Under the pieces are notes generated by a model. That model had not been told where the DNA came from and searched no databases. It saw nothing but the letters and a program-made list of their open reading frames with translations. From contig CAKTWW010000019.1 of NCBI GenBank assembly GCA_934630855.1, positions 1 to 36,462 on the forward strand: 36,462 bases of DNA, read 5' to 3'. Of this stretch, positions 15,135-32,143 are shown in pieces. Source of the DNA: an uncultured Collinsella sp. Lineage in GTDB: Bacteria > Actinomycetota > Coriobacteriia > Coriobacteriales > Coriobacteriaceae. The position numbers and the translations under genes are program-made. How positions within the stretch are numbered: position 1 is the stretch's first letter; each line of letters starts with the position of its first letter.

Positions 15135-15172
15135 AGCGCCGCTGCCCGTCCTTTCGTGTTAGCCTAGGAAAA

Positions 15173-15200: not shown

Positions 15201-15261
15201 CAGAAAAGTTTGAGTAGGGAAACTAATTGACCGAACGGACATGATTTTGAGTTAAGATGGG

Positions 15262-15280
15262 GATACCCCATGGGGGTATC
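15262..15280 (+). promoter_or_regulatory. CsoR-type copper operator
   Basis: GATACCCCATGGGGGTATC is an 8-bp perfect dyad around a three-base centre. It closely resembles the known CsoR operator form (ATACCC, G/C-rich centre, GGGTAT). A -35-like TTGACC lies at 15227-15232, so the palindrome falls at or just past the -10 region, suited to repression. The gene that follows encodes a heavy-metal-associated domain, which agrees with copper control. No csoR gene is in the window. Confidence 0.75.
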
Positions 15281-15309
15281 TAGATAAGACTGCTTGGAAA
15301 GGGGAGCGC

Positions 15310-15693: not shown

Positions 15694-15720
15694 GGCGCGT
15701 GTCTAGCGCGGAAAACGTCG

Positions 15721-16158
15721 CTAGGCTCGTCCGCGCAGCTCAACGTCTTGGATATCGTCGAAGTCGATGGCGATGTCTTTGAGCTTGAGTAGCTTGAAGG
15801 TGGGGAGCACCTCGTCGAGGATGCCGGTACGGGCACGATAGCCGTACGTATCGTAATAGGTGACTCGAACCAAATCGCCGCGTTTGAGACCCTCGAGCTT
15901 ATGCGAAAGCTCGAGGGCTTTTTCTTCCGTCAATTCGCACTTGGGCTCAACGGTGATCTCCTGCTTGCGAACGAGTTCGTAGTATCCCGTCAACGCCGCA
16001 AAGGGCATAAACTGTGCGGCGCGGTTGGCGCGCACGGCGCCGTTGGCAGTGAGGTTGGGGTCGGCGGCGCGGCGTCTTCCCTCGGGGTCCGCCAAGCGCT
16101 CGAAGGCGGTCGGTGGCTTTATGGGCTGCTGTTTGGGCTTAGGCACGATGCCCTCCAA
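15721..16158 (-). CDS. YolD-like protein
   Basis: The 145-residue protein belongs to the YolD-like family, small proteins that are almost always encoded with a Y-family polymerase. Typical features are RAAQFMPFAALTGYYELVRKQE and a C-terminal beta-rich half ending IDFDDIQDVELRG. It overlaps the 3' end of the polymerase gene by 20 bases, so the two are translationally coupled and share the SOS promoter upstream of the polymerase. Family members are proposed to modulate the polymerase (functional replacement for UmuD); this is not proven. Confidence 0.88.
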   Translation of the reverse strand: MEGIVPKPKQQPIKPPTAFERLADPEGRRRAADPNLTANGAVRANRAAQFMPFAALTGYYELVRKQEITVEPKCELTEEKALELSHKLEGLKRGDLVRVTYYDTYGYRARTGILDEVLPTFKLLKLKDIAIDFDDIQDVELRGRA

Positions 16159-17718: not shown

Positions 17719-17801
17719 AACCGACCAAAAAGGGACAGGTTTATTTTGGTCGGTAAAACGCTTGACCTGCCAAAACAAACCTGTCCCTTTTTGGTCGGTT
17801 T
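17718..17801. repeat. Hairpin repeat family 2, copy 1
   Basis: Two 32-base arms (17718-17749 and 17770-17801) are complementary except for one A/C position, and pairing extends inward to 17754/17765 with imperfections. The outer part reads AAACCGACCAAAAAGGGACA and the centre AAAACGCTTG. It lies between the divergent polymerase and PAP2 genes. A second copy is at 30154-30225. Confidence 0.9.
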
Positions 17802-18484: not shown

Positions 18485-18619
18485 TCGCTCGGTTGCCCCC
18501 CGTAAAGTCCCATCGGTTTTTAACGCAGCCCTAAAGAGCGCGAAACAGCTCGGAAAAGCTCGCTTCGTAGCATGGGCCTAACGATCGATACCACCATAAA
18601 GCACGGAAGGGTTGTGGGG

Positions 18620-19147
18620 ATGATGGTCAACTACGGGTTTGGTATGCCGACACGCTTGGTTGCGGACGGGGACGTGGCTCGCTGGTGCGGGCGTCTGGTT
18701 GCTCACTACGGCGGTACCAAGGTGCTGGTCGTGCTGGGCGGTGATAAGCATACGAGCGATGAGCTCGTTTCGGCGGCGCTTGGCTCGCTCGATCGGGCCC
18801 TGCTCGAGCGTGTGCTCTTTCGCTGCGGCTCGGTCGGGGGCGACGGTGGAGACGAACTGGTCGATGAGGCCGTAGCCCTGGCGACCGATGAGGGTGTCGA
18901 CTTTGTTCTGGCGATCGGCGATGCCGATACCGCCGGCTTTGCGCGTGAACTCGCCCGTCGCATGGCCGTGCTCGATGCCGGCGAGGACGGCTTCGTTCCC
19001 TACGGCTGCATTGTCTCGGAGGGAAAGGTGCCCGAGGTCGTAGGCGCTGGCGAGGTCCCTGTTTTTGCCATCATCGCCCCCGAACTGCTGGAGGGCATCG
19101 GCTCTCCCTTGCGCGAGCTGCTCGGTAGCGTGTGTGCTGCAGCGTAG
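18620..19147 (+). CDS. Stand-alone N-terminal half of an iron-type alcohol dehydrogenase, degenerate
   Basis: The 175-residue protein aligns from its first residue with the N-terminal nucleotide domain of the Fe-alcohol dehydrogenase at 28964. Shared stretches include GRLVAHYGGTKVLV, SLDRALLE and then VDFVLAIGD, against VDFILALGG in the full enzyme. The cofactor-binding GGGS of the full enzyme has become GDAD, and the whole C-terminal metal domain is missing. It therefore cannot be an active dehydrogenase. I chose the ATG pair at 18620/18623, which matches the paralogue start and follows GGAAGG; an ATG at 18572 would add 16 residues. An SMR transporter gene follows 9 bases later. It may be a decayed gene or a repurposed binding domain. 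Confidence 0.7.
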   Translation: MMVNYGFGMPTRLVADGDVARWCGRLVAHYGGTKVLVVLGGDKHTSDELVSAALGSLDRALLERVLFRCGSVGGDGGDELVDEAVALATDEGVDFVLAIGDADTAGFARELARRMAVLDAGEDGFVPYGCIVSEGKVPEVVGAGEVPVFAIIAPELLEGIGSPLRELLGSVCAAA

Positions 19148-19156
19148 GAGGACAAT

Positions 19157-19477
19157 ATGCCATATGTGCAGTTGGCGGTAGCCATTGCCTGCGAAATCGG
19201 CGCATCGTCGGCGCTCAAGGCCACGCATGGCTTTACCGTGCTGGCGCCCAGTGTGGCGACAATTGTGCTGTACGGTCTGAGCTTCTACCTGTTTTCGCTC
19301 GTGCTTAACGTGCTCGACCTCGCGAGCGCCTATGCCACATGGTGCGCTGCGGGTATCGTCGCCACCTCGGTCATTTCGGTGCTGGTCTTTGGAGACCACC
19401 TGAGCCCCATGATGCTCGTGGGTCTTGGCCTGTGCGTCGCGGGCGTGGTTATCGTGAACCTCGCAAGCGCATCGTAG
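19157..19477 (+). CDS. Small multidrug resistance (SMR) family transporter
   Basis: The 106-residue protein has four hydrophobic helices. The essential glutamate lies in IACEIGASSALKATHGFT near residue 13, and the third helix has AYATWCAAGIVATSVISVLV with the conserved Trp, close to EmrE/QacE types. It would act as a dimer exporting cationic compounds in exchange for protons. AGGAGG precedes the ATG. Just upstream is the half dehydrogenase gene, probably co-transcribed. The sequence favours the Qac subgroup over guanidinium exporters (Gdx), but this needs a phylogeny. A terminator follows. Confidence 0.92.
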   Translation: MPYVQLAVAIACEIGASSALKATHGFTVLAPSVATIVLYGLSFYLFSLVLNVLDLASAYATWCAAGIVATSVISVLVFGDHLSPMMLVGLGLCVAGVVIVNLASAS

Positions 19478-19512
19478 GTCGCTGGGCAAGCGCCCCATTC
19501 ATGCAATTAAAG

Positions 19513-19557
19513 AACGCCGGTCGTGCGGACAGACCCCGCGCGACCGGCGTTTCGTTT
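19513..19557 (+). terminator. Rho-independent terminator after the SMR gene
   Basis: An 11-bp perfect stem, AACGCCGGTCG (19513-19523) with its complement (19541-19551), has a 17-base loop and a short T-rich tail (TCGTTT). Confidence 0.75.
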
Positions 19558-19621
19558 GCATTTCGAGCATATTGCCAGCTTGCGACCTATGTTGCACAGG
19601 CGTAAACGCTCAGCGTCACCC

Positions 19622-19671
19622 GTGTTTCAAAACACTCCGTTAATAAAACGGGCGATTTTGGCTCGCATAAT
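19622..19671 (+). promoter_or_regulatory. Putative control region of the PII-pot operon
   Basis: GTGTTTCAAAACAC (19622-19635) is a perfect 6-bp dyad with a two-base centre. A -10-like CATAAT lies at 19666-19671 without a good -35. Both lie in the gene-free stretch before the PII gene, so the dyad may be an operator; the binding protein is unknown. Confidence 0.4.
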
Positions 19672-19727
19672 CCCCAACAACGAACGCGCACAGGCGCGCT
19701 CACCGCCACCGAAGAGGGGAGAAAACC

Positions 19728-20078
19728 ATGAAGGAACTGGTACTCATCATTCGCCCGGAGATGCTCGAGAGCCTGAAGGCCATTCTTGACGAGGTGCATT
19801 GCGGCGGTATGACCGTTTCGTCCGTTATGGGCTGTGGCACGCAGAAGGGCGCCTCGACCGATGGCGTCAACGAGATTCGCGGCTTCAAGATCAACATCAA
19901 CCTGCTGCCCAAGATCCAGGCGAGTGTGGTCGTGCGCGACCAGGATGTCGAGACCATTATCTCGGCCGTTCGCGAGCGCATGGCCGACGGTCGTGTGGGC
20001 GACGGCAAGATCTTTATCCGCGATATTGCCGATGCCGTGCGAATCCGTACCGGCGAGCGTGGCAACGCCGCTCTGTAG
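19728..20078 (+). CDS. glnK: PII family nitrogen regulatory protein
   Basis: This 116-residue trimeric signal protein has the PII fold signatures: the start MKELVLIIRP, GDGKIFIRDI (ATP and 2-oxoglutarate site) and VRIRTGERGNAAL at the C-terminus. The T-loop (about residues 36-57) begins TQKGASTDGVNEIRGFK; compared with E. coli GlnB it is about four residues longer and has no tyrosine, so uridylylation at Tyr51 is impossible. It is the first gene before a complete PotABCD transporter rather than amtB. This suggests nitrogen- or energy-dependent control of that transporter. The symbol is by family only. The ATG has GAGGGGAG upstream. Confidence 0.9.
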   Translation: MKELVLIIRPEMLESLKAILDEVHCGGMTVSSVMGCGTQKGASTDGVNEIRGFKININLLPKIQASVVVRDQDVETIISAVRERMADGRVGDGKIFIRDIADAVRIRTGERGNAAL

Positions 20079-20106
20079 GTAGATGGATCGAGAGAAGGCG
20101 ATTGCC

Positions 20107-21219
20107 ATGCCTGGTACCAAACCACTCGTTCAGATTAAGAGCATCAACAAGTTCTACGGCGAGAACCATGTGGTCAAAGACCTGTCCATCGATGTGCAGG
20201 AGGGCGAGTTCCTGACGATTCTGGGCTCGTCCGGCTCGGGCAAGTCGACGACGCTGCGCATGGTCGCCGGCTTTGAACAGCCCACGACGGGCGAGATTTT
20301 GCTTGCCGGCACCAATGTGGCCGATAAGGAGCCGTTCGAGCGCGACGTGAACACCGTGTTCCAGAGCTACGCGCTGTTTCCGCACATGACCATCTTCGAC
20401 AACGTCGCCTATGGCCTGAGGATGAAGAAGGTTCCCAAGGACGAGATTCGCGAGCGTGTGATGGAAATGCTCGACCTGGTGCAGCTCGGCGGCTTTGAGG
20501 GCCGCAAACCCGATCAGCTGTCCGGCGGCCAAAAGCAGCGCGTTGCCATTGCCCGCGCCCTGGTCAACCGACCCAAGATCTTGCTGCTCGACGAGCCGCT
20601 GGGTGCGCTCGATCTCAAGCTGCGTAAGCAGATGCAGCTCGAGCTCAAGCGCCTCCAGCGCAAGCTCAACATCACGTTCCTCTACGTCACGCACGACCAG
20701 GAGGAAGCGCTTACCATGAGCGACCGCATCGCTATCATGCATGACGGCGTACTGGAGCAGATCGGTACGCCCAAGGAGATCTACGAGGCACCGGCCAGCA
20801 AGTTCGTCGCCACGTTCATTGGCGAGACCAACCTGTTTGAGGGCATGGTCTCGGCCGATACGCCCGATGGGCTCGAGATCTCGCTCGAGTCCGGCACGAT
20901 TCGCTCCGATGCCAAGGGCTTTCACTTTGGCGAGCTCGTGGCCGTGTCGGTGCGTCCGGAGCGCATGCAGTTTGCGCTCGAGCCGCGCGACGGCTTCTCG
21001 CTTATGGGCACGGTGCGCGAGCAGGTGTACGTGGGCTCCATGATTAAGGCGATCGTGGTGCTGCCTGATGGCCAGGAAGTGCGCCTGGAGCGTCTGGCCG
21101 GTGACGAGCTGCCCGAGAACGGCCCGGTCTATCTGTACTGGGATCCGGCGGATGCCCGCACCATTAAGACGCTCGACCAGGTCTTTTTCTCGGCACTCGA
21201 GAATGCCGAGATGCGTTAG
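20107..21219 (+). CDS. potA: Polyamine-type ABC transporter ATP-binding protein
   Basis: The 370-residue ATPase has Walker A GSSGSGKST, Q-loop VFQSYALFPHMTIFDNV, signature [16 protein letters not shown], Walker B ILLLDEPLGALD and switch THDQEEAL. A C-terminal regulatory TOBE domain covers about residues 255-360. This long form is typical of spermidine/putrescine (PotA) and related importers. I chose the ATG at 20107 with AGAAGG upstream; the ATG at 20083 has a poorer site and adds eight residues. It follows the PII gene by 28 bases and precedes potB by 12 bases. PotA-type importers also carry opines such as mannopine, so a polyamine substrate is not assured. Confidence 0.93.
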   Translation: MPGTKPLVQIKSINKFYGENHVVKDLSIDVQEGEFLTILGSSGSGKSTTLRMVAGFEQPTTGEILLAGTNVADKEPFERDVNTVFQSYALFPHMTIFDNVAYGLRMKKVPKDEIRERVMEMLDLVQLGGFEGRKPDQLSGGQKQRVAIARALVNRPKILLLDEPLGALDLKLRKQMQLELKRLQRKLNITFLYVTHDQEEALTMSDRIAIMHDGVLEQIGTPKEIYEAPASKFVATFIGETNLFEGMVSADTPDGLEISLESGTIRSDAKGFHFGELVAVSVRPERMQFALEPRDGFSLMGTVREQVYVGSMIKAIVVLPDGQEVRLERLAGDELPENGPVYLYWDPADARTIKTLDQVFFSALENAEMR

Positions 21220-21231
21220 GGGGCGACAGCT

Positions 21232-22167
21232 ATGTCCGATACCGCAACTATGGCGGCGACCGTTGCCGCCACCGAGCACGACGTCGAGGCCGCCCGTATC
21301 GAGCGTCATCGTCGTTTTCGCTCCAACACGCTGCCGGCGCTGGTCACCGTGGGCCCCGTCACCCTGTGGCTGCTCGCGTTTATCGCGGTGCCGCTGCTCT
21401 ACATCCTGATCATGGGCTTTTGCTCCACCGATCAGTACTACAACGTGGTCTACAGCTTTACGCTCGATAACTTCCAGGCCATGCTGGACCCCGAGTACCT
21501 CAAGATCTACGGGCAGTCCATCCTGATCGCTGCCATCTCCACCGCCATCTGCCTGGTGTTGGCCTATCCGTTTAGCTACCTGATCAGCCGCACGTTTAAG
21601 TCCAAAAAGACGCTGCTGTACATGATGATCATCATCCCGTTTTGGACGAACTCGCTGGTGCGCATCTACGGTTGGCGAACGTTTCTTTCGGCGACCGGCC
21701 AGCTCAATACGTTTTTGATGGCGATCGGTGCGACGAGCGAGCCCATCCAGTTCCTGTACAACCAGGCCTGCACGGTCTTTGGCATGGCCTACGACATGTT
21801 TCCGTTTATGGTGCTGCCGCTCTACGCCGCTATCGAAAAGCTCGACGAGTCGCAGATCGAGGCGAGCTTCGATCTGGGCGCCAACATGCTGACCACGATC
21901 TTTAAGGTCGTGATTCCGCAGACCATGAGCGGCATCTTCTCGGGCTGCATCATGGTGTTCATCCCTAGCCTGGGCGCGTTCTATATCTCGGACATCCTGG
22001 GCGGCGGCAATGCCGACGTTATCGGCAACCTCATTCAGCGCCAGTTCCAAAGCGCCAACGACTGGCCCCTGGGAGCCGCGCTTTCGATTCTGCTCATCGC
22101 TATTACGCTGCTGCTGGTCAAGATCTACCAAAAGGCCGGCGGCGATATGGAAAGCCTGGGGGTGTAG
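21232..22167 (+). CDS. potB: Polyamine-type ABC transporter permease, PotB-like
   Basis: The 311-residue inner membrane protein has about six transmembrane helices and an N-terminal cytosolic extension of roughly 40 residues rich in Ala, Glu and Arg. The EAA loop that contacts the ATPase reads EASFDLGANMLTTIFKVVIP near residues 210-229. LVRIYGWRTFLSATGQLN is a characteristic PotB segment. The gene follows potA by 12 bases and its stop lies three bases before potC, indicating tight coupling. Confidence 0.93.
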   Translation: MSDTATMAATVAATEHDVEAARIERHRRFRSNTLPALVTVGPVTLWLLAFIAVPLLYILIMGFCSTDQYYNVVYSFTLDNFQAMLDPEYLKIYGQSILIAAISTAICLVLAYPFSYLISRTFKSKKTLLYMMIIIPFWTNSLVRIYGWRTFLSATGQLNTFLMAIGATSEPIQFLYNQACTVFGMAYDMFPFMVLPLYAAIEKLDESQIEASFDLGANMLTTIFKVVIPQTMSGIFSGCIMVFIPSLGAFYISDILGGGNADVIGNLIQRQFQSANDWPLGAALSILLIAITLLLVKIYQKAGGDMESLGV

Positions 22168-22170
22168 ACC

Positions 22171-23016
22171 ATGGCGATCAAGCGTCAAACGAAGCATAAG
22201 CTGAGCCGTGGAACGGGCATCGTCTTTTGCGCCCTGATCTATGCGATTCTGTTTTTGCCCATTGTGATCGTGGTTGCCAACTCGTTTAACGGCAACACCG
22301 AGAAGCCGTATCTGAGCTGGGGTGGCTTTAGCCTGCGCTGGTACGTGCATCTGTTCCAGAACGGTCCGCTGCTGGCAAGCTTTGGAAACACCATGCTGCT
22401 CGCTATCACCACGACGGTGCTGGCGACGGCACTGGGCACGCTGAGTGCTGTGGGCCTGTACCGCTATAAGTTTCCCGGGCGCAACCTGATCGACAGCTTG
22501 CTGTACATCCCGGTCGTTATCCCCGAGATCGTCATGGGCATCTCGCTGCTGCTGGTCTACGTAAAGGTCGGTGTACCCCGCGGCATGGTGGGCCTAATCA
22601 TCGCGCACGTCACCTTTTGCGTGAGCTTTGTGATCTTTAACGTCCGCGCCCGTCTGGATGGTTACGACCCGTCGCTCGAGGAGGCGTCCATGGACCTGGG
22701 TGCCAACCGCCTGGTCACGTTCTTTAAGGTGACGCTTCCCATGCTGGCCCCGGGCATTGCCGGCGGCGCGCTGCTGTCCTTTACGCTTTCGATTGACGAC
22801 GTCGTGGTGTCCTACTTTGTCTACGGCCAGGACCTGACCTTCCCGCTCAAGGTGATGCAGTCCATTAAGGGCGGCGTGGTGCCCGATGTGAACGCGCTGT
22901 CCACGCTGATTTTACTGGGAACGGTCGCCATCGTGGTGATTACCCAGAGCGGCATGATCGACAAATGGCGCGAGCGCCGCGCCGCAGCCAAGCTGAGCCA
23001 GGAAAGGGGGCGCTAG
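22171..23016 (+). CDS. potC: Polyamine-type ABC transporter permease, PotC-like
   Basis: The 281-residue protein has about six membrane helices and the EAA motif EEASMDLGANRLVTFFKVTLP near residues 170-190. LSIDDVVVSYFVYG and the preceding GGALLSFT stretch match the PotC family, which pairs with PotB. The start is three bases after the potB stop; the gene ends four bases before the binding-protein gene. Confidence 0.93.
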   Translation: MAIKRQTKHKLSRGTGIVFCALIYAILFLPIVIVVANSFNGNTEKPYLSWGGFSLRWYVHLFQNGPLLASFGNTMLLAITTTVLATALGTLSAVGLYRYKFPGRNLIDSLLYIPVVIPEIVMGISLLLVYVKVGVPRGMVGLIIAHVTFCVSFVIFNVRARLDGYDPSLEEASMDLGANRLVTFFKVTLPMLAPGIAGGALLSFTLSIDDVVVSYFVYGQDLTFPLKVMQSIKGGVVPDVNALSTLILLGTVAIVVITQSGMIDKWRERRAAAKLSQERGR

Positions 23017-23019
23017 AAC

Positions 23020-24126
23020 ATGGGCGACTTCGATGTGATGGAGGCCTTCCACAGGCAGCGGATTTCGCGCCGACAGTTTCTGCGCGGGGCGCTGGGCCTG
23101 GCCGCTGCCGGCCTTGCGGCTGGCACCGCGGGTGGTCTGACGGGTTGCGGAAAGTCCGACAACCCCAACGAGCTCAACATCTTCATTTGGACCGAATATG
23201 TGCCCGACTCGGTGCTCGAGGGCTTTGAGAAAGAGACGGGCATCCACATCAACCAGTATTTGTACTCGTCTAACGAGGACATGCTGGCCAAGGTGAGGAC
23301 CGAAAACGAAGGCACCTACGATATCCTGCAGCCGACGGACTACATGGTGAAGAGCCTGATTGCACAGGGGCTGCTGGAGCCGCTCGACCTTTCGGTGCTC
23401 ACCAACAGGGGCAATATCGGCACGCAGTACATGGACCAGGAGTTCGATCCCGGCAACAAGTATTCCATCCCGTTTATGGGCAGCTGCACCGCCATTGCCT
23501 ACAACGAGGATGAGGTCGATAAGCCCGAGAGCTTTACCGATATGCTCGACGAGAAGTTTCGCAGCAATATCGTGACGCTGAACGACTTTCGCGAGGTGTT
23601 GGCCGTCGCTGGCATGACGGTGGGGCTCACCGGCAACGAGGAAGACGACGAGAGTATCGCCAAGATTGCCGAGCAGGCGGCTATATTTAAACCGAACTTT
23701 AAGCTGTACGACTCCGACAGTCCCCGTAACGCGCTGGTGTCGGGCGACTGCATCGCCGGCATTATCTGGACGGCCGAGATTGCCCTGGCACAGCGCGATA
23801 ACCCGGCGATTCAGGTGGCGTTTCCCAGCGAGGGCTGCGGTATTGGCACCGACAACTGGTGTATCCCCAAGGGTGCCAAGCACTACGACAACGCGCTGCA
23901 GTTTATCAATTACATGCTGCGCCCCGAGGTGGCCAAGGTGGTCTCGGAGGACTACCCCTACGTGCAGCCCAACACCGAGGCCATCAAGCTGCTCGACGAG
24001 GATTTCCAAAACAACCCGGTCGAGAACGTGCCTTCCGATGTGTTTAAGCACGGTCGCCGCACCGAGGCGCTGCCGCCCAAGGTGCTGCGCAAGTACGACA
24101 AGATCTGGACGAATCTGAAGGGATAG
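23020..24126 (+). CDS. potD: PotD-like substrate-binding protein, Tat-type lipoprotein
   Basis: The 368-residue solute-binding protein starts with a twin-arginine signal, ISRRQFLRGALG (about residues 15-26), followed by a hydrophobic alanine-rich segment and lipobox LTGC (Cys43). It is therefore probably folded before export and then lipid-anchored, an uncommon route for PotD proteins. The mature part has LNIFIWTEYVPDSVLEGFEK and IPFMGSCTAIAYNED, typical of the spermidine/putrescine-binding family. The canonical polyamine-binding carboxylates could not be confirmed by eye. Its place before an ornithine-cyclodeaminase-like gene suggests an amino-acid-derived amine ligand. Confidence 0.92.
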   Translation: MGDFDVMEAFHRQRISRRQFLRGALGLAAAGLAAGTAGGLTGCGKSDNPNELNIFIWTEYVPDSVLEGFEKETGIHINQYLYSSNEDMLAKVRTENEGTYDILQPTDYMVKSLIAQGLLEPLDLSVLTNRGNIGTQYMDQEFDPGNKYSIPFMGSCTAIAYNEDEVDKPESFTDMLDEKFRSNIVTLNDFREVLAVAGMTVGLTGNEEDDESIAKIAEQAAIFKPNFKLYDSDSPRNALVSGDCIAGIIWTAEIALAQRDNPAIQVAFPSEGCGIGTDNWCIPKGAKHYDNALQFINYMLRPEVAKVVSEDYPYVQPNTEAIKLLDEDFQNNPVENVPSDVFKHGRRTEALPPKVLRKYDKIWTNLKG

Positions 24127-24132
24127 ATCGAT

Positions 24133-25266
24133 ATGAGTAATTCGACCGAAGTCGATTTTAGGTTTCTTTCGGAGCCCGATATCATCAAGGCGGGCGCGAC
24201 CGACATGGCGCACTGCATCGATGTGATGGAGGACCAGTTTAAGCTGTTGAGCTTGGGCGACTATCGCATGAGCGGCAAGAACAAGAACAGTCACGGCGCC
24301 TTTTTGGACTTCCCCGAGAGCTCGCCGTTTCCCAACATGCCCGTTGCCGGTCCCGACCGCCGCTTTATGGCCATGTGTTCCTACCTGGGCGGCAGCTACA
24401 ACATGTGCGGCCTTAAGTGGTACGGCTCCAACGTCAACAACCGCGAGAAGGGTCTGCCGCGCTCGATTCTGACGCTCATGCTCAACGATCCCGATACGGG
24501 TGCGCCGTTGGCGCTGATGAGCGCAAACCTTATCAGCAGTTATCGTACGGCGGCCGTTCCTGCCGTGGGTGTGCGCTATCTGGCGCGCAAGGACGTGCAC
24601 ACAGTGGGCATTATCGGCCCGGGCGTGATGAACAAAACCACGCTGCGCTCGTTTTTGATGGAGCGTCCCGACATCGAGACTGTCAAGGTCAAGGGTCGTG
24701 GGCGTCGCTCGCTGGAGTCCTACGTCGATTACGTGCATCAGAACTTCCCGAGCATTAAAAACGTGCAGATCGTCGATACCGAGGAAGAGGCTATTCGCGA
24801 CAGCGACCTGGTGAGCGTCGCCACCAACGAGAATGGCGGCATCGAGACGTATCCGCGCGTCAAGCGCGAGTGGGTCAAGCCCGGTGCGCTCATTTGCGCC
24901 CCGAGCGATCTGTATGCTGACCGCGAGCCGTTTATCGAGGGCGAGTGGAAGTGCGTGACCGACCTGTATCCCATGTACGAGGACTGGCGCGACGAGATCG
25001 GCCGCTTTGACGTGTGCGGCACGCTCGGCAACGAGTGGGTCGATATGGTCGACTACGGCATGCTGCCGCGTGAGCGCGTGGTGGATCTGGGCGACATCGT
25101 GCGCGGCGTCGACCCTGGCCGCACGAGCGAGGACGACATCTACTTCTTTAGCATCGGCGGCATCAACACCGAGGACGTGAGCTGGGGCACCACGATCTAC
25201 CGCAAGGCAGTCGAGATGGGTCTGGGCCAGGAACTCATGCTTTGGGATACGCCCGCGCTGGCGTAA
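24133..25266 (+). CDS. Ornithine cyclodeaminase/mu-crystallin family NAD(P)-binding protein
   Basis: The 377-residue protein has the family's Rossmann signature HTVGIIGPGVMNKTTLRSF near residue 157, preceded by LMSANLISSYRTAAVPAVGV, which resembles the substrate-binding region with the conserved Arg. Members catalyse deamination of ornithine to proline or reversible reduction of cyclic imines; this sequence belongs to a longer, divergent branch found near amine oxidases. It begins six bases after the potD stop, so it is the last gene of the PII-pot unit, and a strong terminator follows. Reaction and substrate are unassigned. Confidence 0.85.
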   Translation: MSNSTEVDFRFLSEPDIIKAGATDMAHCIDVMEDQFKLLSLGDYRMSGKNKNSHGAFLDFPESSPFPNMPVAGPDRRFMAMCSYLGGSYNMCGLKWYGSNVNNREKGLPRSILTLMLNDPDTGAPLALMSANLISSYRTAAVPAVGVRYLARKDVHTVGIIGPGVMNKTTLRSFLMERPDIETVKVKGRGRRSLESYVDYVHQNFPSIKNVQIVDTEEEAIRDSDLVSVATNENGGIETYPRVKREWVKPGALICAPSDLYADREPFIEGEWKCVTDLYPMYEDWRDEIGRFDVCGTLGNEWVDMVDYGMLPRERVVDLGDIVRGVDPGRTSEDDIYFFSIGGINTEDVSWGTTIYRKAVEMGLGQELMLWDTPALA

Positions 25267-25304
25267 CTTGTCATGCGACATATGCGGTGCGATGGCGCCG
25301 TCGA

Positions 25305-25337
25305 AAAGGCAAGGGGATGGTCCCCCTTGCCTTTTTT
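25305..25337 (+). terminator. Rho-independent terminator ending the PII-pot-OCD unit
   Basis: A 12-bp perfect stem, AAAGGCAAGGGG (25305-25316) with CCCCTTGCCTTT (25323-25334), is followed by a T-run (to about 25338). The oxidase subunits downstream must therefore have their own promoter in 25338-25456, where none is obvious. Confidence 0.9.
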
Positions 25338-25456
25338 TATTGCCGTCCCCATTGTTTCGGTTTGAATGGTAATCGACCGGAAACCGCTCGTTAACAGGGT
25401 GAATCGTAGGATAGGCGCTGTTGGTAACCGATAGACGAGAGGGGTTTGGTGGTGCC

Positions 25457-25840
25457 ATGTCCAGGATTGTCGAACATCCCATTTTGGGTGCTCCCAGCAA
25501 GGGGAGTCGAGTCGTTTTTACCTATGACGGCGTTGAGATGGAAGGGTACGAGGGCGAACCGATCGCCATGGCGCTCAAGGCCGCCGGCGTCGAGGTCCAT
25601 CGTTTTACCGCCAAGCGTCATGAGCCGCGCGGCATCTTTTGCGCTATCGGCCGTTGCACCGACTGCGTCATGGTCGTGGACGGCAAGCCCAACGTGCGTA
25701 CGTGCATGACGCCGCTCGTCGCCGGTATGGACGTACGCACGCAGGACGGCGTCGCCCCGCTCGATTTGGATGACCCGCGTGCCGAGGCTCTGGTTGCCGA
25801 GGCCGCCGCAAGCCCTGCTGCCGTAAAGGAGGCTGAGTAG
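25457..25840 (+). CDS. (2Fe-2S) small subunit, HcnA/opine-oxidase type
   Basis: The 127-residue protein has the ferredoxin-like fold of the small gamma subunit of multi-subunit amine or cyanide-forming dehydrogenases. The cluster ligands lie in GIFCAIGRCTDCVMVVDG and a later Cys in VRTCMTPL, giving the C-x4-C-x2-C...C pattern of a plant-type 2Fe-2S site. I chose the ATG at 25457 since the preceding frame (to a TTG at 25421) has no family-like residues. It ends just before the large flavoprotein gene, within one unit. It would shuttle electrons between the flavin subunits. Confidence 0.85.
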   Translation: MSRIVEHPILGAPSKGSRVVFTYDGVEMEGYEGEPIAMALKAAGVEVHRFTAKRHEPRGIFCAIGRCTDCVMVVDGKPNVRTCMTPLVAGMDVRTQDGVAPLDLDDPRAEALVAEAAASPAAVKEAE

Positions 25841-25841
25841 C

Positions 25842-27449
25842 ATGGAGCGTCATGATCTGGTCGTGGTCGGCGCCGGCCCCAGTGGCCTTTCCGCTGCCAT
25901 CGAGGCTGCCAAGCGTGGGCTCGATGTTGTCGTATTTGATGAGAATGCCCGTCCCGGCGGTCAACTGTTCAAGCAGATTCACAAGTTCTTTGGCTCTAAG
26001 GAGCATCGCGCTAAGGTTCGCGGTTTTCGCATTGGCGATGAGCTGCTTGCCGAGGCCGATGCGGCAGGCGTCAATGTGGTGCTCGATGCTACGGTAATTG
26101 GCCTGTACGAGGGCCGCGAGGTCGTGGTGCGCGTGGGCGATGTCGTGCGCCATGTGAAGGGCGACGCCGTCCTGGTCGCCACGGGTGCGGCCGAGAACAC
26201 GCTCAACTTTCCCGGTTGGACGCTGCCCGGCGTGATCGGTGCCGGCGCCGCACAGACCATGATGAACCTGCATGGCGTAAAGCCGGGCGACCGCGTGCTC
26301 ATGGTCGGCTCGGGCAACGTTGGCCTGGTCGTGTCGTTCCAGCTGCTGCAGGCTGGCTGCGACGTGGTCGCGCTCGTCGATGCGGCACCGCGCGTGGGCG
26401 GCTATGGCGTGCATGCGGCCAAGGTGGCCCGCTGCGGCGTGCCGTTCTACCTGTCACATACTGTGGTGGCCGCCGAGGGCGACGACCGCGTGACCGGTGT
26501 GACGATCGGCGAGGTCGATGCACACTGGCAGGTTATTCCCGGTACCGAAAAGCACTTTGACGTGGACACGATCTGCGTGGCCGTGGGCCTGTCTCCCATG
26601 AGCCAGCTGCTCTCGATGGCCGGATGCGAGATGGTCGATGACCCCAAGCGCGGCGGCTATGTCCCGGTGTGCGACGAGAAGGGCGCAACGAGTGTGCCCG
26701 GCGTGTATGTCTCGGGCGATGTCGCGGGTATTGAAGAGGCAAGCTCTGCCATGATCGAGGGCCGTATCTCGGGCGTGGCGATTGCCGAGTATCTGGGTTA
26801 CACCGACGCGGTGGATGCCGACGAGTCCGAGGACAAGCTCGAGGCTTCGCTCGACACGCTGCGCCAGGGCATGTTTGCACCCAAGAATCGTGGCAAGAAG
26901 ATCGAGACCACGGAGGAGGGCTGTCCGGTCTCGCAGCATCTGCTGCGCCATGGCTACCTTGCCGACGAGGAGCTCGACAGCTATCCCGGCGTGACGCATA
27001 TGGCAGGCGTGCATCCGGTGATCGAGTGCACGCAGAACATCCCCTGTAATCCGTGCCAGGATGCCTGCAAAAAGGGCTGCATCTCCATTGGCGAGCACAT
27101 TACATCGCTGCCGATCGTGGTCGAGGATTCGCATTGTATCGACTGCGGCATGTGCGTGGCCAGCTGCCCCGGTCAGTCGATCTTTTTGGTCAATGAGGAC
27201 TGCGGCGACGGCACCGCGACGGTCACTTTGCCCTACGAGTTCTATCCGCTGCCGCAGGTGGGCGATTGCGGATGTGCGCTGAGCCGCTCGGGCGAGCCGG
27301 TGTGCGATGCCCAGGTGGTGCGCGTGCGCAGCGTCAAGGCGTTTGACAAGACGGCGCTTGTGACCATGAGCGTGCCCAAGGAGTTTGCCATGACGGCGCG
27401 CATGTTCAAGCCTGCTGAGGAGACCGAGGAGGTGGCCTGCCATGAGTGA
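25842..27449 (+). CDS. FAD/NAD(P)-dependent amine oxidoreductase, large subunit with ferredoxin-like C-terminus
   Basis: The 535-residue protein has an FAD motif VVVGAGPSGLSAAIEAAKRG at its start, a second Rossmann motif VLMVGSGNVGLVVSFQLLQ near residue 150, and a C-terminal iron-sulfur region. That region has CTQNIPCNPCQDACKKGC (about 396-413) and CIDCGMCVASCPG (about 432-444), typical of two 4Fe-4S sites. HcnB/OoxA-type subunits normally carry a BFD-like 2Fe-2S site at this end; here that module is the separate gene at 27442. It begins right after the small subunit, with AAGGAGG upstream, and overlaps the next gene by eight bases. Likely role: oxidising an amine and passing electrons to a low-potential carrier. 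Confidence 0.9.
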   Translation: MERHDLVVVGAGPSGLSAAIEAAKRGLDVVVFDENARPGGQLFKQIHKFFGSKEHRAKVRGFRIGDELLAEADAAGVNVVLDATVIGLYEGREVVVRVGDVVRHVKGDAVLVATGAAENTLNFPGWTLPGVIGAGAAQTMMNLHGVKPGDRVLMVGSGNVGLVVSFQLLQAGCDVVALVDAAPRVGGYGVHAAKVARCGVPFYLSHTVVAAEGDDRVTGVTIGEVDAHWQVIPGTEKHFDVDTICVAVGLSPMSQLLSMAGCEMVDDPKRGGYVPVCDEKGATSVPGVYVSGDVAGIEEASSAMIEGRISGVAIAEYLGYTDAVDADESEDKLEASLDTLRQGMFAPKNRGKKIETTEEGCPVSQHLLRHGYLADEELDSYPGVTHMAGVHPVIECTQNIPCNPCQDACKKGCISIGEHITSLPIVVEDSHCIDCGMCVASCPGQSIFLVNEDCGDGTATVTLPYEFYPLPQVGDCGCALSRSGEPVCDAQVVRVRSVKAFDKTALVTMSVPKEFAMTARMFKPAEETEEVACHE

Positions 27450-27810
27450 GGCCGTGAACTTTTACAAGGAACCGGGCGAGCCGCTCGACCGTGCTGCGAT
27501 TGACTTGGGGCCCTACGTGCCCGCGCCCGATGACGACGTGCTCGTGTGCCGTTGCGAAGAGGTGACCAAGGGCGATATTCGCCGCGCCATCCACGACGGC
27601 ATGTACACCATGACTGAGATCCGTCGTTATTTACGTCAAGGCATGGGGCTGTGCCAGGGACAGAGCTGCACCAAGCTCGTGCGCCGCATTATGGCCACGG
27701 AGCTTACAGGCACACCGGCGGTAGCGCTTTTGGAGCCCGAGACCTCGCGAGCGCCCATGCGCCCGATCGAGATGAGCGTGCTAGGCAACGGTGAAGAGGG
27801 GAGAGCGTAG
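27442..27810 (+). CDS. (2Fe-2S) BFD-like protein
   Basis: The 122-residue protein contains the BFD-type four-Cys pattern VCRCEEVTKGDI (Cys36 and Cys38) and MGLCQGQSC (about Cys70 and Cys75), which binds a 2Fe-2S cluster. In relatives this domain is fused to the large oxidase subunit; here it is a separate polypeptide. Its start overlaps the large-subunit stop (ATGAGTGA), so translation is coupled. It probably forms part of the same complex with the subunits on both sides. N- and C-terminal tails of 30-40 residues are not assigned. Confidence 0.88.
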   Translation: MSEAVNFYKEPGEPLDRAAIDLGPYVPAPDDDVLVCRCEEVTKGDIRRAIHDGMYTMTEIRRYLRQGMGLCQGQSCTKLVRRIMATELTGTPAVALLEPETSRAPMRPIEMSVLGNGEEGRA

Positions 27811-27812
27811 CC

Positions 27813-28964
27813 ATGGCGGGAACTTATGCAGATATCACCGACGTCGCCTGCGATGTCGTCATTATCGGCGCCGGCGTGATCGGATGCGCGGCGGCGTACA
27901 ACCTGGCCAAGAAGGGCCGCTGCGTCACGGTGCTCGACCGCGAGCCCAATGTGGGCGAGGGCGCGAGCTCGCGCAACGGCGGCGGCGTTCGCCAGAGCGG
28001 CCGCGATGGTCGCGAGCTGCCGCTTGCCATGTATGCCGTCGAGAACATTTGGCCTTCGCTGTCCGACGAGCTGGGCGCCGACGTCGAGTACGTCAAACGC
28101 GGCAACCTGCGCCTGGGCAAGACCGAGGAGCACCTGCAGACGCTTCGTAAGCTGGCGAGCATGTCGCAGGGCCTGGGGCTCGATATGAAGATGATCGGAC
28201 CCGAGGAGGTGCGCGAGATCAACCCGTACCTGTCCGACCAGGTCATCGGCGCCTCGTGGTGCCCTACGGATGGACATGCCAACCCCATGCGCACCACGCT
28301 CGCGTATTATCGCGCGGCCAAGGCGCTCGGCGTGCGCTTCGTGACGGGCGTCGAGGTCAAGCGCCTGCGCAAGGTGCGCGGCCGCGTCGCGGGCGTCGAG
28401 TGCAACATTGGCACCTTTACGGCTAACGACGTGCTGCTGGCGGCGGGCCTGGGCAGCCGCGGTATCGCCGCGAGCGTGGGCATCGACATCCCCATGACGG
28501 GATCGCTTATCGAGTGCCTGGTCACCGAGGCCGAGCCCACGATGTTTCCGCAGATGCTCGGCGTTGCCACAGGTGACTTTTACGGACATCAGACGACGCA
28601 TGGCTCGTTTGTCTTTGGCGGCAGCTCGGGTCTGGAGGAGTCGAACGGCGCGTTTGGCGGCCGTCCCACCTCGAGCATAACGGCACCGGCTGAGTGCCGC
28701 GCTATCATGGGCTACATTCCGCGTCTGGCCGATGCCAAGATCGTGCGAACCTGGGCCGGCTGGGAGGACGAGAGCGCCGATGGCGTGCCGGTGATCTCGA
28801 AGATTGACGAGGTTCCGGGCTTGACCATCGCCTGTGCCTTTACCGGGCACGGATTTGGCATCTCGCCGATTGTGGGCCTACTGCTGTCCGAGCTGGTGTG
28901 CGACGAGCCCACGACGCTCGATGTCTCGGCGTTTCGCTACGACCGCTTTAAGGCGTGGTTGTGA
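27813..28964 (+). CDS. DAO-family FAD-dependent oxidoreductase (beta subunit)
   Basis: The 383-residue protein has the FAD motif DVVIIGAGVIGCAAAYNLAKKG (starting about residue 14) and NGGGVRQSGRDGRELPLAM, typical of the D-amino acid/sarcosine oxidase family subgroup (SoxB, HcnC, OoxB). The C-terminal ITCAFTGHG-like segment (TIACAFTGHGFGISPIVG) closes the FAD site. It would hold the substrate-oxidising flavin and cleave a C-N bond of a secondary or N-substituted amino acid, with electrons passed to the Fe-S subunits. It starts two bases after the BFD gene and its stop codon overlaps the start of the next gene. Substrate is unknown. Confidence 0.9.
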   Translation: MAGTYADITDVACDVVIIGAGVIGCAAAYNLAKKGRCVTVLDREPNVGEGASSRNGGGVRQSGRDGRELPLAMYAVENIWPSLSDELGADVEYVKRGNLRLGKTEEHLQTLRKLASMSQGLGLDMKMIGPEEVREINPYLSDQVIGASWCPTDGHANPMRTTLAYYRAAKALGVRFVTGVEVKRLRKVRGRVAGVECNIGTFTANDVLLAAGLGSRGIAASVGIDIPMTGSLIECLVTEAEPTMFPQMLGVATGDFYGHQTTHGSFVFGGSSGLEESNGAFGGRPTSSITAPAECRAIMGYIPRLADAKIVRTWAGWEDESADGVPVISKIDEVPGLTIACAFTGHGFGISPIVGLLLSELVCDEPTTLDVSAFRYDRFKAWL

Positions 28965-30148
28965 TGGAGGATTTCTCGTACCGCCTGCCCACACACTTCG
29001 TGTTCGGTTTTGGTTCCGAGCGCGAGGCGGGCCGGCTTGTCGCGCACTACGGCGGCACCAAGGTGCTCGTGCTGTTTGGCGGCGGCTCGGTCGAGCGGTC
29101 GGGCCTGCTGGAGCGCGTGCTCAACTCGCTCGATCGGGCGCTGCTCGATCACGTTGAGCTTAAGGGCGTCAAACCCAACCCGCTGCTGAGCACGGTCTAC
29201 GAGGGCATATCGCTTGTGCGCGATGAGCGCGTGGACTTTATTCTCGCGCTTGGCGGCGGCAGCGTTATCGATACCGCGAAGGCCATTGCTGCCGGCGCGC
29301 GTTATCCGGGTGACGTGTGGGACTTTTACGGCGGCGACCGTACGCCCGATCGGGCCTTGCCGGTCGGTTGCGTGCTTACCATCGCGGCTTCCGGTTCCGA
29401 GGCCTCGCCCGATTCGGTGATCACGCAGGATGGCTCGATGCTCAAACGCGAGACATCCTCGTCGGTGCTGCTGCCGACGTTTAGCATCTTAAATCCCGAG
29501 CTGACCGAAACTCTGCCGGCATATCAGACAGCATGCGGTATCACCGATATGTATTCGCATCTGCTGGAGCGATACATGAGCAGAAGTACCGCCGTCGGGG
29601 TGTCCGACCGCATGATCGAGGGCCTGATGCTATCGATTATCGACGAGGCGGCGCCCGTTGCGGAAGATCCACGAGACTACGATGCGCGCGCCAACCTTAT
29701 GTGGGCAGCAACGCTGGCGCACTGCGGCATCGCCGGCGCCGATCGTAAGCACGACTGGGCGAGTCACGATATCGAGTACGCCCTGTCGTCGCGCTACGGT
29801 GTGGCGCACGGCGCGGGACTCGCCGTGGTGATTCCGGCGGTGCTCACGTATTACCTGGATGTCGATGCTGCCGCGGTGCCGCGCTTGGCTCAGTTGGCGC
29901 GCCGCGTTTGGGGCGTGGACGAGACCGACGATATGGCTGCTGCTCGTGCCGGCGTTGAGGCCCAGCGTTCGTTCTTTGCTTCACTGGGTATGCCGACGAC
30001 ACTCGAGGAGGTGGACGGCAAGCTCGAGGATATTCCCTCGCTGGCGAGCGAGACGTGCTTTGCCGGCGGTCGCGCCGGCACCGTGGGAGGCTATCTCCCG
30101 CTCGACGAGCATGCCGTCGCACGCATCTTCAGCCTGATGCTCGCCTAA
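28964..30148 (+). CDS. Iron-containing alcohol dehydrogenase
   Basis: The 394-residue enzyme belongs to the butanol dehydrogenase-type Fe-ADH family. The nucleotide motif is GGGSVIDTAKAIA near residue 95. The expected metal ligands are seen as Asp and His in ITDMYSHLLE (about 193 and 197), His in KHDWASHDIEYAL (about 267) and His in GVAHGAGL (about 281). Its ATG overlaps the stop codon of the preceding oxidase (TGATG), so it is part of that unit. It could reduce an aldehyde released by oxidative amine cleavage to recycle NAD(P)H; this is inference. A shortened paralogue lies at 18620. Confidence 0.93.
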   Translation: MEDFSYRLPTHFVFGFGSEREAGRLVAHYGGTKVLVLFGGGSVERSGLLERVLNSLDRALLDHVELKGVKPNPLLSTVYEGISLVRDERVDFILALGGGSVIDTAKAIAAGARYPGDVWDFYGGDRTPDRALPVGCVLTIAASGSEASPDSVITQDGSMLKRETSSSVLLPTFSILNPELTETLPAYQTACGITDMYSHLLERYMSRSTAVGVSDRMIEGLMLSIIDEAAPVAEDPRDYDARANLMWAATLAHCGIAGADRKHDWASHDIEYALSSRYGVAHGAGLAVVIPAVLTYYLDVDAAAVPRLAQLARRVWGVDETDDMAAARAGVEAQRSFFASLGMPTTLEEVDGKLEDIPSLASETCFAGGRAGTVGGYLPLDEHAVARIFSLMLA

Positions 30149-30153
30149 TACCT

Positions 30154-30225
30154 GCCAGGAAGGGGCAGGTTTATTTTGGTAGGTAAAGCGTTTGACCTGC
30201 CAAAATAAACCTGCCCCTTTTTGGT
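30154..30225. repeat. Hairpin repeat family 2, copy 2
   Basis: The arms 30154-30184 and 30195-30225 form a long stem with a few G·U positions. It resembles copy 1 at 17718-17801, but the outer stem has GGGGCAGG/CCTGCCCC in place of GGGACAGG/CCTGTCCC. It starts six bases after the Fe-ADH stop. The T-run after the stem (CCCCTTTTTGG) allows it to act as a terminator for the oxidase unit. Confidence 0.88.
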
Positions 30226-30306
30226 CAGTCGCCGTCTGTGGGCAGATTGGCAACGCTCGCTGATTACGGTCTTGACCTGCGTTAGAATAAGGGCATCTGA
30301 TTATCC

Positions 30307-30328
30307 GGGCGCATGGAGGAGTGCGCCC
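30307..30328 (+). promoter_or_regulatory. Short leader hairpin upstream of pgi
   Basis: GGGCGCA (30307-30313) and TGCGCCC (30322-30328) form a 7-bp stem with an eight-base loop containing GGAGGAG. It sits just before the real ribosome site AGGAGG (30336-30342). A weak promoter-like pair (CTGATT, 17 bases, TAGAAT) lies upstream near 30258-30287. Confidence 0.45.
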
Positions 30329-30347
30329 GTATGCTGAGGAGGACTTT

Positions 30348-32042
30348 ATGGCAACTGTTGCCGCACCTATCGACGCTACGTCGACCGCCGCTTGGAAGGC
30401 GCTCGAGGCCCATCAGGAGAAGCTCGAGGCCGAGGGCATCGATCTTAAGGCCTGGTTCGCTGCTGACGCCGACCGCGTGAACAAGCTGAGCTTTGACGCC
30501 GGCGACCTTCACTTCGATCTATCCAAGAACCTGGTGACCGATGAGACCGTCAAGCTGCTGTGCGATCTTGCCCGCGAGGTGAAGCTCGAGGAGCGCCGCG
30601 ACGCCATGTTCTCCGGCGAGCACATCAACACCACCGAGGACCGCGCCGTCCTGCACACCGCGCTTCGCCGTCCGGCAAGCGAGAAGGGCCAGCTCATCGT
30701 TGACGGCCAGGATGTCGTCGCCGACGTGCACGAGGTCCTCGACCGCATGTATGCCTTCGCCGAGCGCGTGCGCTCCGGTGAGTGGAAGGGCGTTACCGGT
30801 AAGAAGATCGAGCACCTGGTGTCCATCGGCATCGGCGGCTCCGATCTGGGCCCGGTCATGGCCTACGAGGCCCTGCGTCCCTATGCCGACGCCGGTATCG
30901 ACTGCCGCTACATCTCCAACATCGACCCCAACGATCAGGCCGAGAAGCTCAAGGGTCTGGACCCCGAGACCACGCTCGTGATCATCGTCTCCAAGACCTT
31001 CACCACGCTCGAGACCCTCACCAACGCCCGCGAGGTCAAGACCTGGATGCTCGAGCAGCTCAAGGCCCAGGGTGCCATCGATGGCTCCGATGAGCAGAAC
31101 GCCGAGGCCGTGACCAAGCACTTCGTCGCCGTCTCCACCGCGCTCGACAAGGTCGAGGCCTTCGGTATCGATCCGGCCAACGCCTTCGGTTTCTGGAACT
31201 GGGTCGGCGGCCGCTACTCTGTTGACTCCGCCGTGGGTCTGTCTCTGATCGTCGTGCTCGGCCCCGAGCGCTTCCAGCAGTTCCTCGAGGGCTTCCACGC
31301 CATCGACGAGTACTTCTGCAACACGCCGCTCGAGAACAACGCCGTCGCGCTGATGGGCCTGCTCAACGTCTGGTACGTCAACTTCTTCGGTTCCAAGAGC
31401 CACGCCGTGCTGCCGTACTGCCAGTACCTGCACCGTTTCCCGGCCTACCTGCAGCAGCTCACCATGGAGTCCAACGGCAAGCATGTCCGCTGGGATGGCA
31501 GCGCCGTGACCTCCGATACCGGTGAGATCTTCTGGGGCGAGCCCGGCACCAACGGTCAGCACGCCTTCTACCAGCTGCTGCACCAGGGCACCGTGGTGGT
31601 TCCGGCCGACTTTATCGCTTTCGCCAACACCGCCAATCCCGCAACCGACAGCGGTCAGGACGTGCATGAGCTGTTCCTGGGCAACTTCCTGGCCCAGACC
31701 AAGGCGCTCGCCTTTGGTAAGACGGCCGATGAGGTGCGCGCCGAGGGCACGCCCGAGCAGATCGTCCCGGCCCGCTGCTTTGAGGGTAACCGTCCGACGA
31801 CCTCGATCTTTGGCGACACGCTGACCCCGTTCGCACTCGGCGAGCTCATCGCCCTGTACGAGCACATCACGTTTGTCGAGGGCACGGTCTGGGGCATCGA
31901 CTCCTACGACCAGTGGGGCGTCGAGCTGGGCAAGCAGCTTGCCAAGCAGATCACCCCGGCCTTCCATGACGACGCCGCCAAGGCCGAGCAGGACGCTTCG
32001 ACCCAGGCGCTCATCGAGTTCTACCGCGCTCATCGCAAGTAG
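30348..32042 (+). CDS. pgi: Glucose-6-phosphate isomerase
   Basis: The 564-residue cytosolic enzyme interconverts glucose 6-phosphate and fructose 6-phosphate in glycolysis. Motifs include [18 protein letters not shown] (sugar-phosphate binding), [26 protein letters not shown] and the catalytic [11 protein letters not shown] and [17 protein letters not shown]. The length matches the long bacterial/eukaryotic type. I chose the ATG at 30348 because AGGAGGAC lies just upstream; the frame opens 9 codons earlier without a ribosome site. Codon use is strongly biased, as expected for a highly expressed gene. A terminator follows at 32073. Confidence 0.98.
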
Positions 32043-32072
32043 GATTCGCTGCGATAAGTTACGCATAGCTGA

Positions 32073-32110
32073 CAAGGGCCCGTATCCGTTGGGATGCGGG
32101 CCCTTGCTGT
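32073..32110 (+). terminator. Terminator between convergent pgi and the VirD4-like gene
   Basis: A 15-bp stem with one G·U pair (32073-32087 with 32092-32106) and a four-base loop is followed by a modest T-rich stretch (CTGTTTG). Confidence 0.75.
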
Positions 32111-32143
32111 TTGCGGTCGAGCGTGGCGGACTGCACGGCGTTG

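Follow-up and report, generated by a model that had tools for sequence, protein, structure and literature searches.

Which compound is imported and oxidised by the products of a long gene row in a gut actinobacterium, and by what chemistry? The row lies on the forward strand at 19728-30148 of contig CAKTWW010000019.1 from an uncultured Collinsella sp. (GCA_934630855.1); the whole analysed stretch of 36,462 nucleotides is called the window here. It comprises 11 co-directional open reading frames (ORFs) for, in order, a PII regulator, a PotABCD-type ABC importer, a protein of the ornithine cyclodeaminase (OCD)/mu-crystallin fold, a 2Fe-2S subunit, an Fe-S flavoprotein, a BFD protein, a DAO-family flavoprotein and an iron-containing alcohol dehydrogenase (Fe-ADH). 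An earlier note on this DNA had described the co-directional run as ten genes of a nitrogen-linked system for import and C-N oxidation of an opine-like substrate, a secondary amine or N-substituted amino acid; its observation is confirmed for place, strand, families and gut actinobacterial host, the gene count being eleven, and its interpretation is partly supported. The reading that we favour, at a probability of roughly 0.57, is that the operon serves to take up and deaminate putrescine, or an aliphatic diamine close to it, under nitrogen control. Both putrescine and agmatine abound in the gut and affect the host, and to our knowledge nitrogen acquisition from them by strict anaerobes is poorly mapped. 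No paper was recognised as describing this system in a literature search that returned mostly titles and left subscription papers largely outside its coverage, which does not imply that the system is unpublished.

All 11 products match Pfam families above cut-off (P-II, ABC_tran with TOBE_2, two BPD_transp_1 and SBP_bac_8 on the importer side; OCD_Mu_crystall, Fer2_4, Pyr_redox_2, Fer2_BFD, DAO and Fe-ADH on the enzyme side), and the ORFs abut or overlap throughout, save for a 154-bp gap between the OCD and 2Fe-2S genes. Seven loci of Lachnospiraceae, with proteins about 36-76% identical to those of the window, repeat this layout, and the gene row is therefore not a product of chance. Terminator-like hairpins at 19512-19552 and 30150-30170 bracket the operon and fit a single transcription unit without proving one, such sites being a weak signal in the region (13 found, 8.4 expected). 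Another hairpin of this kind, at 25313-25328 inside the 154-bp gap, is a possible attenuation point.

Putrescine is the most economical substrate, and a putrescine-class diamine a likely one, because sister operons carry a putrescine aminotransferase in place of the oxidase genes, because the ligand site of PotD is conserved, and because genes for agmatine deiminase and carbamoylputrescine amidase (AguA/AguB) lie beside oxidase operons. When the window PII was searched in 397 genomes of the family to which the Acetatifactor locus L060 belongs, 28 genomes contained it at 32 places (E 1e-28); 26 neighbourhoods were examined together with L060, five places remaining outside. The complete oxidase layout is found in seven loci (L154, L155, L157, L158, L160, L169 and L060, the last with the full PII-PotABCD-oxidase-Fe-ADH order), all with two OCD genes in a row where the window has one; the L162 contig reaches no further than one OCD gene and the beginning of a second PotD, and the L159 contig no further than PotA. 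Eight other loci (L153, L156, L161, L164, L165, L166, L168 and L184) have the PII-PotABCD block followed by a putrescine aminotransferase (NF008570, 654-690 bits, cut-off 612), sometimes with an aldehyde dehydrogenase (ALDH) or a divergent gene in between, and in L172 such a gene (668 bits) follows PII-PotA. L163 has an ALDH and no aminotransferase, and eight further places (L167, L170, L171, L183 and L185-L188) have other contents. Of the seven oxidase operons, three have AguA/AguB genes as neighbours (L155, on the opposite strand, L158 and L160), the L155 amidase ORF scoring below its cut-off (385 versus 410). Two side observations concern the importers of this family: in L171 and L172 the layout PotC-PotA-PII-PotA places PII between two ATPase genes, and Amidohydrolase_3-type genes (checked on L165) recur beside PII-Pot importers in L165, L166, L167 and L170.

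The binding protein points the same way. The window PotD matches E. coli PotD (chain 8y5h_E, 7e-61), and at 13 positions which we take to form the polyamine site of the E. coli protein, in a numbering that agrees with the structure match, it reads WTEYTYDESWGDY. Eleven of these residues are as in E. coli, including D168, E171 and D257, the changes being S83T and W255G. Among relatives, 17 of 18 PotDs are identical at the 13 positions and read WTEYSYDASWFDY, irrespective of which module, oxidase or aminotransferase, lies behind them (seven complete oxidase operons, L162 and nine aminotransferase- or ALDH-linked loci); the L167 PotD differs, and its stretch has neither oxidase nor aminotransferase genes. 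PotA belongs to the TIGR01187 subfamily (381.6 bits, cut-off 355.6) and scores below the equivalog PRK09452 (437.7 versus 482).

The nitrogen link that had been proposed is also supported, by the PII gene in the importer's own row and, in related loci, by the PII and ammonium transporter genes described below. The window PII matches PF00543 with 81.5 bits and lies below two NCBIfam P-II equivalog cut-offs (84 versus 181 and 80 versus 202). Of the residues presumed to bind 2-oxoglutarate and ATP (Q39, K58, R101 and R103) it retains the Gln and Lys of the 2-oxoglutarate site, and the QKG, LLPK and RIRTGE motifs are present. It is 59-71% identical to the PIIs of the seven Lachnospiraceae oxidase operons. 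The T-loops of importer-linked PIIs end NEIKGFKTTINLLPK-like, whereas PIIs beside amino-acid permease modules have EYEV...LLPK instead.

Beyond the Lachnospiraceae, a genome scan with an OCD alignment yielded 577 loci, of which the best 80 were considered. In anaerobes the block of OCD, 2Fe-2S, flavoprotein, BFD and DAO genes is recurrent; 38 of the best 80 loci, most of them from proteobacteria, have a RidA-like gene (checked on L036) shortly after the OCD gene and, as a rule, a more distant DAO gene after that. We laid out 24 anaerobe-type loci, several of which end at contig ends, and checked their neighbour families on one representative each. An AraC-type regulator is present in 21 of the 24, a RidA-like gene in 11, PII in 10, an amino-acid permease-like carrier in 13 and another carrier in four more, and L038 carries, behind its core and on the opposite strand, a more distantly related PotABCD set (27-49%). 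The core was found in 9 of 396 sampled coriobacterial genomes; a gene assigned to the ammonium transporters by its L177 member stands in 3 of 10 coriobacterial stretches. The earlier note had named oxidase genes unlinked to the importer in relatives as an argument against itself: in Lachnospiraceae they are linked, while PotABCD lies beside the core in none of the ten coriobacterial stretches examined (three on short contigs). A family-level search around L059 yielded three genomes only, and a Pfam scan limited to ten chosen neighbour genes gave no amino-acid decarboxylase.

Several of these and further observations weigh against the reading as a putrescine operon. PotB, PotC and PotD are best NCBIfam matches yet fall under the equivalog cut-offs (285 versus 348, 254 versus 326 and 212 versus 582). 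The window PotD differs from the Lachnospiraceae PotDs at 3 of the 13 sites (T83, E171 and G255, E171 being as in E. coli), so that spermidine or another cation is possible. All nine aminotransferases score below the second putrescine aminotransferase model, TIGR03372 (469-501 versus 659), the ALDHs fall under every cut-off shown where they were scanned, and AguA/AguB are not among the genes of the window operon. The core is accompanied by amino-acid-permease-like carriers more often than by PotABCD, and NCBI names its OCD subfamily after tyramine; the name is unproven, and with the commoner carriers it means that the core may not be diamine-specific. Sigma-70 promoter-like sites show no excess over chance (2 found, 3.1 expected by shuffling), and a scan of the window against Rfam at gathering threshold gave no riboswitch or other known RNA.

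From gene content and homology we infer the substrate, direction, electron acceptor, PII target and products as follows. PotABCD would import putrescine, and the co-encoded PII, a 2-oxoglutarate/ATP sensor by homology, would gate the importer. The OCD enzyme and the four-subunit flavin/Fe-S complex would convert the primary amine to 4-aminobutanal and deliver the electrons to a non-oxygen acceptor, and the YqhD-like enzyme would reduce the aldehyde to the alcohol; nitrogen would be retained and carbon largely discarded. The earlier note had anticipated both the oxidation of a C-N bond by a complex with flavins and Fe-S centres and a partner that reduces the aldehyde, and the anatomy of the complex and the presence of the Fe-ADH support them.

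By NCBIfam the OCD protein is not an ornithine cyclodeaminase: it belongs to NF004848, 'tyramine oxidase subunit B' (513 bits, cut-off 362). Ornithine cyclodeaminase proper was rejected because its models score far below cut-off (PRK08618, 105 versus 417; PRK07589, 53 versus 350), and the SbnB model TIGR03944 gave 155 bits, below its cut-off of 327. The OCD protein's closest homologue among the matches listed is 98% identical and named Collinsella aerofaciens, and at least 7,875 of the 7,998 scored candidates listed are OCD-fold relatives. Two other homologues, of the OCD protein (73%, P0007) and of the Fe-ADH (62%, P0179), share the same assembly figures (6 contigs, longest 11759) and probably represent another species carrying a window-type operon.

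The closest structures of the OCD protein are SbnB, whose entry 4m54 contains an N-alkyl glutamate, and an archaeal alanine dehydrogenase (AlaDH), in a tie. The residue counts cover 81 homologues at 71 loci that passed set limits of length and identity. K95, R110 and R138 are each present in 81 of 81, R110 being common to SbnB and absent from AlaDH and P2C reductase; K187 and R189, basic residues that follow the second Rossmann strand and are each present in 73 of 81, suggest use of NADP(H).

In the catalytic complex, the flavoprotein scores 139 bits against SoxA (cut-off 1164) and the DAO protein 145 bits against SoxB (cut-off 529); two [4Fe-4S]-type Cys motifs can be read at the flavoprotein C-terminus, where Pfam Fer4_7 stays below cut-off (21.4 versus 27). 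The closest solved relative of the DAO protein, 1y56_B (4e-47), is filed as sarcosine oxidase, and we take it to be the β subunit of a proline dehydrogenase (PDH1), an oxidiser of the pyrrolidine ring. Of the two carboxylate ligands of heterotetrameric sarcosine oxidase, presumably equivalent to R52 and K348 of MSOX, the Arg is kept as R60 and the Lys replaced by Gly, 1y56_B having Met at this position. R60 is present in 7 of 7 PotABCD-linked, 32 of 32 other anaerobe-type and 37 of 38 distant DAO proteins. The best NCBIfam match of the Fe-ADH is PRK15138, presumably the YqhD model (274 bits, below the cut-off of 645).

The chemistry that we consider most likely, albeit tentatively, is transamination via a self-made opine, because of the SbnB-like structure, the N-alkyl glutamate in the SbnB entry, the R110 shared with SbnB, the NADP(H)-type residues and R60 of the DAO protein. 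With NADPH as reductant, the OCD enzyme would join the amine to a keto acid (2-oxoglutarate is the probable one), and the sarcosine/proline dehydrogenase-like complex would oxidise the resulting N-alkyl amino acid to the aldehyde and glutamate; an opine may in this way be an internal intermediate, not imported food. Extended to the relatives as an 'opine shuttle', in which an NADPH enzyme of the OCD fold links a keto acid to a primary amine (to putrescine in the window, to tyramine-type amines elsewhere) and the complex splits the product into aldehyde and amino acid, the proposal is a shade more tentative. Against both count the tie between AlaDH and SbnB, the replacement of R189 by Ser in 8 of the 81 homologues, and the consideration that the Arg residues of the DAO and OCD proteins may be retained for structural reasons.

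Direct oxidation is a possible though somewhat less probable chemistry. Here the DAO complex would turn putrescine into 4-aminobutanal/1-pyrroline and ammonia, and the OCD protein would act downstream as a 1-pyrroline reductase or upstream as a pyrrolidine-making putrescine cyclodeaminase, whose product the complex would then oxidise. This alternative draws on the same genomic evidence for putrescine, on the imine reductases and cyclodeaminases that the OCD fold includes, and on the nearness of the DAO protein to 1y56_B. It accords less well with the carboxylate-type Arg kept by the DAO protein and with the OCD-DAO linkage in proteobacterial loci where NCBI names the OCD protein for tyramine, which cannot cyclise, the name being unproven.

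That the operon serves another primary amine (tyramine, phenethylamine, cadaverine or agmatine) through a promiscuous importer is unlikely: the subfamily name, the amino-acid permease-like carriers and the AraC regulators of related cores speak for it, but the swapped operons have putrescine-specific partners. We found no paper on 'tyramine oxidase subunit B' or on a tyramine oxidase paired with an ornithine cyclodeaminase, in a search that left most subscription papers outside its coverage; a passage on a plant bacterium names tynA and tynB as genes for tyramine oxidase and does not state their fold (PMC10850344). More doubtful still is the view of the earlier note, that an opine or an N-alkyl or glycated amino acid is imported and oxidised. 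The structural relatives of the DAO and OCD proteins act, by their names, on amino or imino acids, and an agropine permease chain (6hly, 9e-10) and MotA (5l9g, 4e-5) are weakly among the PotD relatives; PotD is, however, far closer to polyamine binders and keeps their acidic site residues, sister operons use a putrescine aminotransferase behind the same importer, and AguA/AguB accompany oxidase operons. Least probable, by a small margin, is an inversion of D/L amino acids with DauA/DauB-like logic, the DAO protein making an imino acid for the OCD enzyme to reduce, which could draw on D-arginine dehydrogenase (3nyc, 1e-7) among the DAO relatives, the RidA-like genes and a class I/II aminotransferase adjoining the core in L049, but fits poorly with the Fe-ADH in the window and seven Lachnospiraceae operons and the ALDH accompanying the module in Sagittula and L042.

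The putrescine operon favoured here resembles several known systems in part. The E. coli route of PotABCD and PatA has the same importer class and expected product, 4-aminobutanal, and the sister operons feed a PatA-like enzyme; in the window the place of PatA is taken by an OCD enzyme, an Fe-S flavin complex of four subunits and an aldehyde reductase, and PII is co-encoded. Heterotetrameric sarcosine oxidase and archaeal PDH1 (1y56) share the DAO subunit (1y56_B, 2gag_B), a SoxA-like flavoprotein and the BFD and SO_alpha_A3 domains, whereas the window complex is split into four polypeptides, has 4Fe-4S motifs on the flavoprotein and is not expected to use oxygen. SbnB makes a staphyloferrin B precursor and in 4m54 is bound to N-alkyl glutamate; the window OCD protein is about 30% identical to it, has NADP-type basic residues and is linked to an amine oxidation complex. 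In the N-methylglutamate and saccharopine pathways, amine nitrogen passes through a secondary-amine amino acid that is then dehydrogenated, as would happen here; the coupling enzyme predicted from the genes is of the OCD fold and the amine a diamine. Agrobacterium OoxAB/NoxAB has a DAO protein and a second flavoprotein beside an importer and an OCD-family gene, a likeness of layout, and the importer context of the window points to putrescine; a plasmid search gave none labelled opine oxidase among the best 40 of 1378 records, many of them unlabelled.

If the opine step holds, it would account for the OCD group standing beside sarcosine-oxidase-like enzymes; the shuttle would then be a widespread pair of enzymes doing the work of amine transaminases and amine oxidases without oxygen, and PII would read the very keto acid that serves as co-substrate. 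The operon predicts a testable route with a PII-controlled ABC amine importer, and it predicts what the large group of OCD-fold proteins does that databases call either tyramine oxidase subunit B or ornithine cyclodeaminase.

The phylogeny of the parts bears on their joint function. Clades for the approximately unbiased (AU) test were named after identities were known and before trees were seen. The core tree held concatenated core proteins of the window and of the 36 loci that had all four genes at the chosen identity; the importer tree held the window and the 21 loci with at least four of the five genes. In the core tree the window groups with L001 (100/100), a Clostridia locus whose 21 kb include an amino-acid permease-like gene and lack PotABCD, and the seven PotABCD-linked Lachnospiraceae form a separate clade (100/100); one clade of window and Lachnospiraceae operons is rejected (p-AU 3e-6). 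In the importer tree the oxidase-linked Lachnospiraceae are one clade (100/99), to which addition of the window is rejected (p-AU 9e-4); this clade adjoins an ALDH-linked locus within an otherwise aminotransferase-linked set, a pattern that, read from the tree, is a module swap in either direction. The Fe-ADH tree likewise rejects a clade of window and Lachnospiraceae (p-AU 0.0037), the window Fe-ADH being about 53-57% identical to many other Fe-ADHs and 36-39% to those of the Lachnospiraceae operons. Since all three trees reject a single clade, their topology is that of an importer, core and reductase assembled at least twice, or of an ancestral operon with exchanged blocks, and a combination assembled repeatedly or kept through exchange supports a joint function of the three. 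The long branch of the window in the importer tree and the many weak forks and long rows of the Fe-ADH tree count against this argument.

Table 1. Features of the gene row, in window coordinates
Feature	Position	Strand	Evidence
PII-family regulator, long T-loop, importer-linked subgroup	19728..20078	+	PF00543; T-loop alignment
PotA-type ATPase	20083..21219	+	TIGR01187 potA
PotB-type permease	21232..22167	+	PF00528; best NCBIfam PotB
PotC-type permease	22171..23016	+	PF00528; best NCBIfam PotC
PotD-type binding lipoprotein	23020..24126	+	SBP_bac_8; twin-arginine signal and lipobox by eye
Enzyme of the OCD/mu-crystallin fold, in the NCBIfam subfamily 'tyramine oxidase subunit B'; putative NADP(H)-dependent imine reductase or opine-forming enzyme	24133..25266	+	
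2Fe-2S subunit, SoxA N-terminal-like	25421..25840	+	PF13510
SoxA-like FAD flavoprotein, two C-terminal [4Fe-4S]-type Cys motifs	25842..27449	+	PF07992
BFD-type [2Fe-2S] subunit	27442..27810	+	PF04324, PF17806
DAO-family flavoprotein, sarcosine oxidase-β/proline dehydrogenase-β-like, putative catalytic subunit	27813..28964	+	PF01266; 1y56_B
YqhD-like Fe-containing alcohol dehydrogenase, proposed aldehyde reductase	28955..30148	+	PF00465
Terminator-like hairpin behind operon	30150..30170	+	

The operon lies in a presence/absence island. Positions 19148..30167, which hold a small multidrug resistance family exporter gene (19157-19477, upstream of the operon) and the 11 operon genes, are absent from a close Collinsella relative, G172 (99% identity to the window in phosphoglucose isomerase). 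G172 aligns at 86% to window 18511-19147 and at 93% to 30168-32997, with 18 bases at the island position. The OCD gene was found in none of 43 genomes of that genus (E 1e-60), a weak negative obtained without a known positive. GC and GC at third codon positions of the operon are within the range of the flanks, and composition does not mark the island out. Recent transfer from the sampled Lachnospiraceae was considered and none is shown, given the flank-like composition and the rejection of a single clade by the trees.

In L046 (Anaerostipes sp. 992a), near-identical pairs of recombinase-like and TnpB-like genes at 224-1853 and 14847-16464 flank the oxidase module, which looks mobile. The Photobacterium locus L039, one of the 24 anaerobe-type loci, combines a window-like DAO protein (54%) with distant 2Fe-2S (31%) and flavoprotein (28%) partners. 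At the island edge, window 18572-19147 encodes a 191-residue N-terminal piece of an Fe-ADH, also open in G172, with 66% DNA identity to the operon Fe-ADH gene over 240 aligned positions. Window 17719-17793 is a 75 bp inverted match to the G172 empty-site stretch behind the operon position, and represents a repeated terminator-like element near the island edge.

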